A DNA stretch of 64,000 nt from Winogradskyella sp. J14-2 (GTDB lineage Bacteria > Bacteroidota > Bacteroidia > Flavobacteriales > Flavobacteriaceae). Below are positions 62,313 to 64,000 of the stretch, piece after piece; positions within the stretch are counted from its first letter, which is position 1, and each line of letters opens with the position of its first letter. The position numbers and the translations under genes were made by a program. The notes beneath the pieces are model-generated. The model worked only from the letters and a program-made list of their open reading frames with translations. It was not told where the DNA came from and made no database searches. The stretch covers positions 3,242,501 to 3,306,500 of the forward strand of contig NZ_CP019388.1 in NCBI RefSeq assembly GCF_001971725.1, read 5' to 3'.

Positions 62313-62439
62313 ATTCCTGCAAAAGCAGGAATCTCATTACAATAGGTTTTATATCTATATAAACCACATATGGTCATCCTAAACTTGCTTGTGCTGAATT
62401 TATTTCAGTATTTCTGAGTCCCTTATTAATGAGTAAGTC

Positions 62440-62486
62440 GTCAGTTCGAGTGATTTTGAGTTACGCGAAATCGTATCGAGAATTTT
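62440..62486. repeat. single-arm copy of TTCGAGT/TATCGAGAA repeat
   Basis: Starts GTCAGTTCGAGTGATTTTGA and ends ATCGTATCGAGAATTTTTT, matching each arm of the inverted repeat at 56851-56990. Confidence 0.65.
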
Positions 62487-62509
62487 TTGCTGTGAGCAAT
62501 TTCAAAATC

Positions 62510-64000
62510 TTAACTAATATAATTCCAGATATTACGGTACTTACTCATTTGTCTGTAAGTATTCAAAATCATTTTATGTTCAGGTAAAGCTAAGCTAGGA
62601 TCAAGCTTTAAAACCGACTTCGCATGATATCTCGCGCGCTCTAGGATGTCTTTGTCCTTTACAATATCTGCAATTCTAAGATTTAAAACACCACTTTGTT
62701 GTGTACCCATAATATCGCCAGGACCTCTAAGTTTCAGATCTACTTCAGCAATTTCAAAGCCATCTGTGGAGCGTACCATAGTTTCTAAGCGCGTTTTACT
62801 GTCATTACTCAGTTTATGCCCAGTCATTAAAATACAATAACTCTGTTCGGCACCACGACCAACACGTCCACGAAGCTGGTGTAATTGCGATAAACCAAAA
62901 CGTTCAGCACTTTCAATAATCATAACCGAAGCATTTGGTACGTTAACACCAACTTCAATAACAGTGGTGGCAACCATAATGTTGGTTTTGCCTTCAGCGA
63001 AGCGTTGCATCTCGTAATCTTTGTCTTCGGCTTTCATTTTTCCATGAACAATAGAAATTTGATAGTCTGGTGTTGGAAACTCTCTTGAGATGCTTTCGTA
63101 GCCGTCCATCAAGTCTTTATAATCCATTTTTTCACTTTCTTGAATGAGAGGATACACAACATAGATTTGTCTGCCTTTGGCAATTTCGTCTTTCATAAAT
63201 CGAAAAACTTTCAGTCGATTATTATCGTATCGATGCACTGTTTTTATCGGTTTTCTGCCAGCTGGTAATTCGTCAATAATTGAAATATCCAAGTCGCCAT
63301 AAACAGACATTGCTAAAGTTCTCGGAATTGGAGTAGCGGTCATCACTAAAATATGTGGTGGAATAACTGCCCCACCAACCTCCCCAGAAGGGAGGCTTTT
63401 TAAGTGTTGCTCAATAGTTTTGATTACGGAGTCGATATCTCCAATGATTTGCTCATTTGAAAATCGAACAACTTTAAATCCGAGATCATTTAAAATTAAA
63501 GTTCGTATTTCGTCTATTTCCTGTTGCTCAATTTTATTATGATAACCACCATCAACTTCAATAACTAAATTCTTCTCTAGATTTACAAAGTCGACAATAA
63601 ATTCGTCTATGATATGTTGACGTCTGAATTTGAATCCTATGTTTTTGCCTCGTAAACTTTCCCATAAAATCCGCTCAGCTTCGGTGCTGTTTTTTTTGTT
63701 TTCTTGCTGTAATTCTTTCATCAATTTGTAGGTCGAAGGTCGAGCAGTTTGGTATCTGTTTAGAACCGCTTTTGCGTCTTCCCTCTGGGAAGATTGAGAT
63801 GGGCCTTTTTCCCACAATTTTGATCTTTGTTTTACGCCAAAACGATGTTGCTCGTCGATAATAGCAAGTCCTAAATTTTTAAATCTCACCTTATCTTCGA
63901 GCAGTGCGTGAGTGCCAATTAAGATCTGTAAATTGCCGTTTTCGAGATTTTCATGAATAATTCGTCTATCTGAAGTTTTAGTTGACCCAGTTAATAATGA
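62510..64000 (-). CDS. recG: RecG helicase with inserted DUF559 nuclease domain (5' end outside window)
   Basis: The C-terminal 497 or so codons of the branch-migration helicase RecG, which remodels stalled forks. Order as read: GTHALLEDKVRFKNLGLAIIDEQH (motif II), FGVKQRSKLWEKG, then an insert of about 145 residues, then PPHILVMTATPIPRTLAM (motif III), then motifs V-VI with ATTVIEVGVNVPNAS and QLRGRVGRG. In ordinary RecG only a few residues separate KLW from PPH. The insert is a DUF559 domain: MKELQQENKKNSTEAERILWESLRGKNIG in part, FKFRRQHIIDEFIVDF and VIEVDGGYH, which keep the acidic residues of the PD-(D/E)xK-like fold. The frame stays open throughout, so a fusion protein should be made. 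Confidence 0.93.
   Translation of the reverse strand, partial: SLLTGSTKTSDRRIIHENLENGNLQILIGTHALLEDKVRFKNLGLAIIDEQHRFGVKQRSKLWEKGPSQSSQREDAKAVLNRYQTARPSTYKLMKELQQENKKNSTEAERILWESLRGKNIGFKFRRQHIIDEFIVDFVNLEKNLVIEVDGGYHNKIEQQEIDEIRTLILNDLGFKVVRFSNEQIIGDIDSVIKTIEQHLKSLPSGEVGGAVIPPHILVMTATPIPRTLAMSVYGDLDISIIDELPAGRKPIKTVHRYDNNRLKVFRFMKDEIAKGRQIYVVYPLIQESEKMDYKDLMDGYESISREFPTPDYQISIVHGKMKAEDKDYEMQRFAEGKTNIMVATTVIEVGVNVPNASVMIIESAERFGLSQLHQLRGRVGRGAEQSYCILMTGHKLSNDSKTRLETMVRSTDGFEIAEVDLKLRGPGDIMGTQQSGVLNLRIADIVKDKDILERARYHAKSVLKLDPSLALPEHKMILNTYRQMSKYRNIWNYIS
63369..63804. mobile_element. 436-bp DUF559-encoding insertion with terminal inverted repeats, inside recG
   Basis: The ends are imperfect inverted repeats of about 27 bp. 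The low end reads GCCCCACCAACC then TCCCCAGAAGGGAGG; the high end, on the opposite strand, reads GCCCATCTCAATC then TTCCCAGAGGGAAG. Each end also folds on itself (CCTCCC/GGGAGG; CTTCCC/GGGAAG). The ends are GC-rich compared with their surroundings. The only coding content is DUF559, in frame with recG. From memory, DUF559 ORFs in Bacteroidota often sit between such GC-rich palindromes. No transposase is present, and exact target duplication is unclear (AG on both sides is possible). Confidence 0.7.

Follow-up and report, generated by a model that had tools for sequence, protein, structure and literature searches.

An in-frame DUF559 domain within recG

The window (the whole stretch of 64,000 nucleotides of Winogradskyella sp. 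J14-2 that was analysed) ends in a recG gene read from the minus strand. Between the codons for two of its motifs, DEQH (which we take to be RecG motif II, as the earlier note on this DNA also named it) and TATPIPRT (motif III), lies an additional element of 437 bp. We set its limits by its palindromic ends, from GGCCC at position 63805 (the minus-strand 5' end) to GGGGC at position 63369, in agreement with the limits of 63369 to 63804 proposed earlier. The features of the locus are as follows:

62510 to 64000, minus strand: open frame of recG, including the in-frame insert; the 5' portion of the gene lies beyond the window edge
63845 to 63856, minus strand: codons for DEQH, presumably RecG motif II, upstream of the insert
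63369 to 63805, minus strand: inserted element, 437 bp, GGCCC to GGGGC, with inverted palindromic ends
63777 to 63793, minus strand: hairpin of the left (5') end, TCTTCCCAGAGGGAAGA; in relatives, three of its stem pairs vary on both sides
63401 to 63715, minus strand: DUF559 (PF04480) nuclease domain, RecG amino acids 445 to 549, EDxHD/Vsr-like fold
63379 to 63395, minus strand: right (3') end hairpin, CCTCCCTTCTGGGGAGG, then TTGGTGGGGC
63316 to 63339, minus strand: codons for TATPIPRT, RecG motif III

Both junctions of the insert are read through in frame. The full recG product of the source genome (G000; L001) is 845 amino acids long, and the RecG proteins of four congeners with an empty site, measured in full (L138, L125, L130 and L103), are 700 amino acids long. 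Pfam models for the RecG wedge, OB, DEAD, Helicase_C and RecG domain 3 flank the DUF559 match, confirming the claim of the earlier note that a complete DUF559 domain is set between motifs II and III with the frame open across both junctions. That note had also stated that RecG normally has only a short linker at this place, and two solved RecG structures bear this out: the alignment with 1gm5 stops at residue 515 and restarts at 519, leaving three residues unaligned, and that with 9wm0 stops at residue 417 and restarts at 420, leaving two, indicating that the insert occupies a very short loop. An AlphaFold model of the whole fused RecG, made from 28 sequences, was too poor to judge (mean pLDDT 54, pTM 0.29), and we therefore make no statement on how the insert packs against the helicase. 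An assembly error is unlikely, because the same insert recurs at the same place in 16 other genomes of the genus.

The inserted domain is related to a homing endonuclease

The insert encodes about 145 amino acids, which the nuclease domain and the ends of the element take up. The match to PF04480 scored 99.1 bits against a cut-off of 20.6 and spanned model positions 5 to 108 of 109, and ten residues (T24, E27, W31, D55, E66, D68, G69, H72, D81 and R84) were invariant across 104 domain sequences. In a profile search of solved structures it matched 3hrl (2e-32) and 3r3p, entitled 'Mobile intron protein' (2.5e-7). The structure predicted for the domain alone had a mean pLDDT of 91, and Foldseek searches with it returned 3hrl first and then 3r3p, the catalytic domain of I-Bth0305I (2.8e-5), with Escherichia coli Vsr as a weak fold match (0.02). 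The Vsr-like fold anticipated for the insert was thus recovered. By profile and predicted fold, the catalytic domain of the insert matches that of the EDxHD homing endonuclease I-Bth0305I and is homologous to it, with the acidic and histidine residues conserved. Median dN/dS came to 0.068 in the insert, where 75 of 136 pairs were usable, and to 0.047 in the host gene, where 127 were; the low insert value is also expected for any domain retained within a conserved protein.

The Pfam listing for the insert contained no further DNA-binding domain (only DUF559 and, weakly, MTES_1575) and no transposase, including the Y1 type (RAYT). No Hint or intein model was among the 9 Pfam families, nor among the 25 of 39 NCBIfam matches listed, and Rfam gave no match in positions 62400 to 64000.

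The insert is patchily distributed in Winogradskyella recG

We searched the whole RecG against 68 genomes of the genus and obtained 64 matches. Motifs allowed the insertion site to be read in 62 of these recG genes, and inspection by eye added G041; the match in G051 was interrupted by stops. Counting the source genome, 17 of the 63 readable genes contained the insert, 40 had a clean empty site, with 35 residues from DEQH to PRT, and six had a longer linker (51 to 59 residues in five of them, and also long in G041). Aligning the relatives, as the earlier note had proposed, therefore showed the insert to be polymorphic, some close relatives having it, some lacking it and some having a reduced form, rather than carried by all of them, the outcome that the note had held to speak against recent mobility. 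The linker of G004 reads SSQSSQNETDPNEVGGA and retains both ends of the element, and those of G048 and G025 retain the ends in part; the linkers of G052, G040 and G041 have no clear likeness to it. We rejected the reading of all six long linkers as scars, as both ends are clearly kept in G004 only.

To follow the insert on its host gene, a tree was built from 62 recG genes (17 carriers, 40 empty and 5 with long linkers) after dropping the inter-motif segment together with 50 flanking codons per side; this is the tree of one gene and not a species tree. The carrier state needed 11 changes on it, at least 10 of which were forced by strongly supported branches. The source gene was sister to the empty gene of G002 (support 99/83), and the carrier G026 paired, with weaker support (93/72), with the empty G023. 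Allele replacement causing loss could account for part of this patchiness. One draft genome, G050 (75% completeness, 4% contamination), had two distinct recG copies, on C105 and C88, possibly through contamination.

Insert and host gene share much, though not all, of their history

We compared differences at 4-fold sites between insert and host gene, in close pairs that were chosen after inspecting the distances of all pairs. In three such pairs with no genome in common, the insert differed at 7 of 87 sites and the host gene at 168 of 642 (pooled p = 8e-5; p = 0.053, 0.029 and 0.029 for the single pairs). The pair G009/G057 leaned the same way without reaching significance (4/28 versus 60/202, p = 0.12), and two pairs were reversed, the insert being more distant than the host gene in G010/G019 (14/20 versus 64/204, p = 0.001) and in G010/G057 (p = 0.011). 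Over all 136 carrier pairs the mean 4-fold difference was 0.613 for the insert and 0.555 for the host gene, and insert and host DNA distances were correlated at 0.79. As the insert is on average no closer than its host gene, and given this correlation, it has descended together with recG for much of its history; taken with the discordant pairs, the sequences suggest that this descent is mixed with occasional movement apart from the host gene.

The flanks were also informative. Compared with its empty sister G002, the source gene differed at 20% of the first 51 nucleotides to the right of the insert and at 0 to 5% thereafter; the stretch between the insert and motif III diverged sharply from the empty sister gene over about 20 to 30 nucleotides, and no long co-conversion tract extended beyond about 50 nucleotides in this comparison. 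The residues PPH occurred within a few residues after the insert in 17 of 17 carriers, versus 16 of 40 empty genes, with a p value of 1e-5 that is overstated because the sequences are related. Flank conversion of this extent is very short for double-strand-break repair, which counts against a homing reading of the insert.

Related domains are inserted in other host proteins

Elsewhere in the genus, DUF559 domains lie in frame within proteins that we take, from their motifs, to be MetH (4 genomes), LeuRS (3), IleRS (1) and HsdR (1), and at the N terminus of what is presumably a threonine/serine dehydratase-like protein in 13 genomes (L050, L052 to L060, L062, L064 and L065). Nine further loci carry N-terminal DUF559 fusions to proteins that by motif are HemD-like (L148, L158, L160, L166, L177 to L179, L181 and L185), six of them with no clear left hairpin; the dehydratase-like and HemD-like fusions form separate branches of the domain tree described below. 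In L073, which we assume to be the HsdR stretch, short in-frame repeats (NLPAGKAG and ACLPDRQG) lie just downstream, apparently in the rest of the HsdR carrying the insert.

Across the family, 143 of 299 genomes had a DUF559 match of any kind, and the loci read included LeuRS, MetH and RecG inserts in further genera as well as one more IleRS insert (L186). A profile built from 13 inserts was then run against the named genome collection, giving at least 592 stretches and at least 580 relatives. The best 80 of these relatives, all from Bacteroidota or from groups that we presume to lie within it, comprised 54 internal in-frame inserts (defined by more than 70 open codons on either side), 20 stand-alone genes and 6 that ran past the edge of the stretch. 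HMM scans of 18 proteins from these 80 loci supported the following hosts: urocanase, MazG, Ham1/RdgB, an ABC-F type ATPase, GH31, a DegT aminotransferase, the CCA-adding enzyme, PurL, MetH, WecB, UvrA, ValRS, LeuRS and an aldehyde dehydrogenase-MaoC protein with the insert between its domains; the remaining hosts, IleRS, HsdR and HisD among them, were named from motifs by eye. In a phylum-wide sample, 150 of 395 genomes had a match at 1e-20 or better, stand-alone or inserted.

RecG is therefore one host among many, since the same domain type lies inside aminoacyl-tRNA synthetases, methionine synthase, urocanase and other proteins. For the same reason the suggestion of the earlier note that the fusion might have a new joint activity with the helicase found no support, and we set aside a fusion private to RecG with a new helicase function.

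A tree of 187 such domains, made by a quick method from few columns and with 87 of its 182 inner branches below 80% support, placed inserts together mostly according to host site, the changes required numbering 2 for 38 RecG rows, 5 for 28 LeuRS rows, 4 for 16 MetH rows (a number inflated by L214, which was labelled MetH and is MazG by HMM scan) and 5 for 11 IleRS rows. The hosts of L245, L223, L238, L275, L178 and L055 were relabelled by hand for this tree. Apparent jumps between hosts were seen for a urocanase insert amid those of RecG, and for ValRS and LeuRS inserts amid those of IleRS.

The ends of the element are palindromic, with compensatory changes in the left stem

A GC-rich hairpin lies at either border of the element. 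In the insert clade of the domain tree (134 rows, of which 4 with flanks too short were dropped, leaving 130), 113 had a left hairpin, 110 a right one and 97 both, compared with 4 and 5 of 130 in control windows about 260 to 405 nucleotides away and a mean of about 12 of 130 per side in dinucleotide shuffles. The hairpins are not confined to this clade, as among the 52 other DUF559 rows 32 had one on the left, 38 on the right and 25 on both sides. The left and right hairpins were exact reverse complements of each other in 14 of the 97 elements with both (permuted mean 0.4, maximum 3).

We aligned the left ends of 22 of 23 RecG inserts (L188, with a different spacing, was omitted) and the right ends of 18 of 23 (omitting L021 and L034, which are atypical, and L033, L035 and L047, which are repeats), and counted stem pair changes on the left ends alone. 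Three of the seven left stem pairs were altered on both sides, in a compensatory manner. None of 500 shuffles reached the observed covariation score, number of cells paired or number of cells with a double change; the other two of the five measures failed against the shuffles (pairs with a double change, reached in 45 of 500; pair types, in 500 of 500). Taken over the different host proteins, translation of the left hairpin runs in each of the three frames. Together, the stem compensation and the use of three frames indicate that the palindrome is preserved as DNA, whatever peptide results.

The borders of the element could be verified in one MetH gene (L146/L174; G281 C1:745500-751500) with two DUF559 inserts at two sites. 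The two match along their full length of 418 bp, starting at AGCCCC and stopping at GGGGCT, so these sequences mark the borders, and the alignment suggests that one insert is a copy of the other made inside a single gene. No target duplication was seen by eye at the two MetH sites, or in the flanks of carrier and empty recG genes. In relatives, the second MetH site carries either what seems to be a right end on its own (L150) or palindromic repeats of other kinds. The loop at this site, after NDDDIE or NEDDIE, carries other in-frame repeats, of the CNAELDSAS and CHRKRSHEVSN type, in L004, L005, L006 and L184, and is perhaps a hot spot for palindromic elements.

Copies with like ends lack the nuclease

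Of 10 genomes tested, 9 contained the hairpin pattern, with between 1 and 74 occurrences, and the reversed control occurred in none; Winogradskyella G372 lacked the pattern, and G369 and G374 had one or two occurrences. We read nuclease-less copies in a single genome outside Winogradskyella, that of an uncultured Bacteroidales bacterium (G367), which also holds the stand-alone coding element L253. Ten short hairpin pairs were read there in full, the distance from one hairpin to the other being 71 to 143 bp. In five of them (L277, L278, L281, L283 and L286) both sides carry the L253 end, GACTCTCCCCCC-GCCCTCCCTNNNAGGGAGGG; in the five others, variant forms of this end stand on one side or on both. 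From their ends, these pairs and L253 look like one family with one coding and several non-coding members. The pair in L277 is apparently in frame within an open reading frame. In two of the twelve G367 stretches (L287 and L288) the hairpins lie about 900 to 950 bp apart with no DUF559 seen between them; in L287 a frame that is presumably PurM-like has hairpins at both ends.

In the source genome, a looser end pattern allowing up to 3 mismatches gave 3 matches versus 1 in the reversed control, a weak excess. These candidate solo ends (C1:674355, 2081363 and 3083287; L194 to L196) lie between genes; one is an exact left end, and two are alike with 3 mismatches.

Discussion

We propose that the recG insert is probably a selfish, splicing-free, homing-like element, consisting of a DUF559 endonuclease between inverted palindromic ends and lodged in a short loop of a protein. 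As read from the sequences, the elements display this anatomy, open frames, conserved nuclease residues and a patchy presence beside empty sites, together with some distances discordant with the host gene, domains from one host falling among those from another on the domain tree, an ectopic copy and nuclease-less copies with the same ends. From these features we infer cleavage by the nuclease and its target, a route of copying, movement, and a fused RecG that retains its activity. Under this model, translation of the host gene would yield RecG with the nuclease domain as an unspliced bulge, and the nuclease would cut an empty recG allele at or near the loop when gene transfer brings the two alleles together. 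Repair off the carrier allele would then copy the element with about 10 to 30 bp of flank. Rarely, the palindromic ends might let a copy enter a new gene or an intergenic site, and at new sites only tolerated, in-frame insertions would survive. Finally, copies would decay in frame into linkers or into nuclease-less palindromes, the latter perhaps mobile in trans. Because the open frame and the loop position would leave the host protein working, no intron or intein would be needed. The earlier note had likened the logic of the insert to an intein-free homing insertion, a comparison that the analysis supports.

An alternative that we consider unlikely is a palindrome-ended transposon (REP- or MITE-like) that moved via its ends, either by DUF559 acting on the hairpins in a transposase-like manner or by another enzyme, and whose persistence at fixed sites would reflect descent and ordinary recombination instead of homing. 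Hairpin inverted repeats at both ends, within and outside genes, the exact borders of the double MetH insert and the nuclease-less copies of G367 with like ends are all in keeping with it, as, weakly, are the solo ends of the source genome (3 versus 1 in the control, one exact). However, the domain lineages follow host site for the most part (2 changes over 38 RecG rows), as site-specific copying predicts, carriers in different recG backgrounds have a short right flank in common, and the recG and MetH flanks compared show no target duplication by eye.

It is considerably less probable that the nuclease is a domesticated accessory domain that adds a useful activity to RecG and is kept by selection. 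On the recG tree 40 of the 62 genes are cleanly empty and 5 have a longer linker; the same domain type occurs in tRNA synthetases, MetH, urocanase, GH31 and other proteins with no common function; and the palindrome is retained though the encoded peptide varies and all three frames are used. These facts speak against domestication, although the strong purifying selection on the insert, its presence at the same RecG site in several genera and the frame that is open throughout would be expected under it. Finally, it is very improbable that the insert is an intein or intron and that its product is lost before RecG becomes active. I-Bth0305I is named a mobile intron protein (3r3p), and the available part of one source places a DUF559 gene in the EDxHD family within a section on inteins (PMC9403480). 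Against this reading, the nuclease domain and the ends of the element take up the whole insert of about 145 amino acids, its continuous open frame is under purifying selection, neither the Pfam families nor the 25 NCBIfam matches listed (of 39) included a Hint or intein model, and Rfam gave no match in positions 62400 to 64000.

Homing endonucleases occur in introns, in inteins and in genes of their own, and so spare host proteins any burden. The element proposed here, a selfish endonuclease between palindromic ends, seems to dispense with the shelter of an intron or intein, sitting instead in the protein's own frame. If true, this would account for the nuclease domain in many RecG, tRNA synthetase and MetH sequences of Bacteroidota and would supply a candidate enzyme for palindromic repeats of the phylum, a catalogue, drawn from nature, of the places where a loop of an essential enzyme tolerates a domain of about 150 residues, and a testable system for the entry of new domains into old proteins. 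Beyond recG, the evidence is about evenly balanced for a broader claim, namely that such elements form an autonomous, protein-invading class widespread in Bacteroidota: hairpin-flanked elements whose EDxHD/Vsr-type nuclease would home into particular, fixed loops of proteins that are essential (RecG, LeuRS, IleRS, ValRS, MetH, UvrA and others), would be translated unspliced with the host enzyme and act from inside it, and would mobilise nuclease-less palindromes in trans. In the open-licence literature we found no description joining in-frame palindromic elements with EDxHD/DUF559 nucleases.

Parts of this arrangement are nevertheless known from other systems. To our knowledge, the Rickettsia palindromic elements encode no enzyme. 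In the part of the source available, they are in-frame palindromes of about 150 bp in unrelated genes (PMC10969869), and the present element resembles them in being palindromic and in frame in unrelated protein genes; it differs in its length (437 bp in recG, 418 bp in MetH), its conserved endonuclease domain and its occurrence in Bacteroidota. As in MITE and REP/RAYT systems, there are many short palindromic or inverted-repeat copies and a coding member with shared ends, and in G367 terminal inverted repeats are common to coding and non-coding copies, as in an insertion sequence/MITE pair. Unlike those systems, the element has no transposase by Pfam, its coding member being a Vsr/EDxHD-type nuclease, and many of its coding copies lie in frame inside proteins.

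EDxHD homing endonucleases are, in the available part of the article, a family of intron-type homing endonucleases, of which I-Bth0305I is a long multi-domain enzyme with an extended DNA-binding region and a target of nearly 60 bp (PMC3943268). The insert belongs by profile and fold to the same catalytic domain family as I-Bth0305I (PDB 3r3p), and it shares with EDxHD homing endonucleases site-specific lineages and a patchy presence. In contrast to I-Bth0305I as described there, a multi-domain mobile intron protein, the RecG nuclease lies inside the frame of its host protein, with no intron, intein or extra binding domain detected.

Caulobacter VsrA, according to the portion of the paper at hand, is a DUF559 Vsr-like protein with a PD-(D/E)XK-type fold and a proposed role in mismatch repair (PMC12907096). 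The insert shares that Pfam domain and fold type; VsrA, unlike it, is described as a free protein and not as part of another one. Stand-alone DUF559 genes were also seen as near-identical copies in pairs about 1 kb apart (L045 and L046). The source genome itself has two more weak DUF559 relatives (L002 and L003), one being the C-terminal part of a 233-amino-acid protein and the other what we take to be a Vsr-like gene near an apparent piece of a cytosine methyltransferase.
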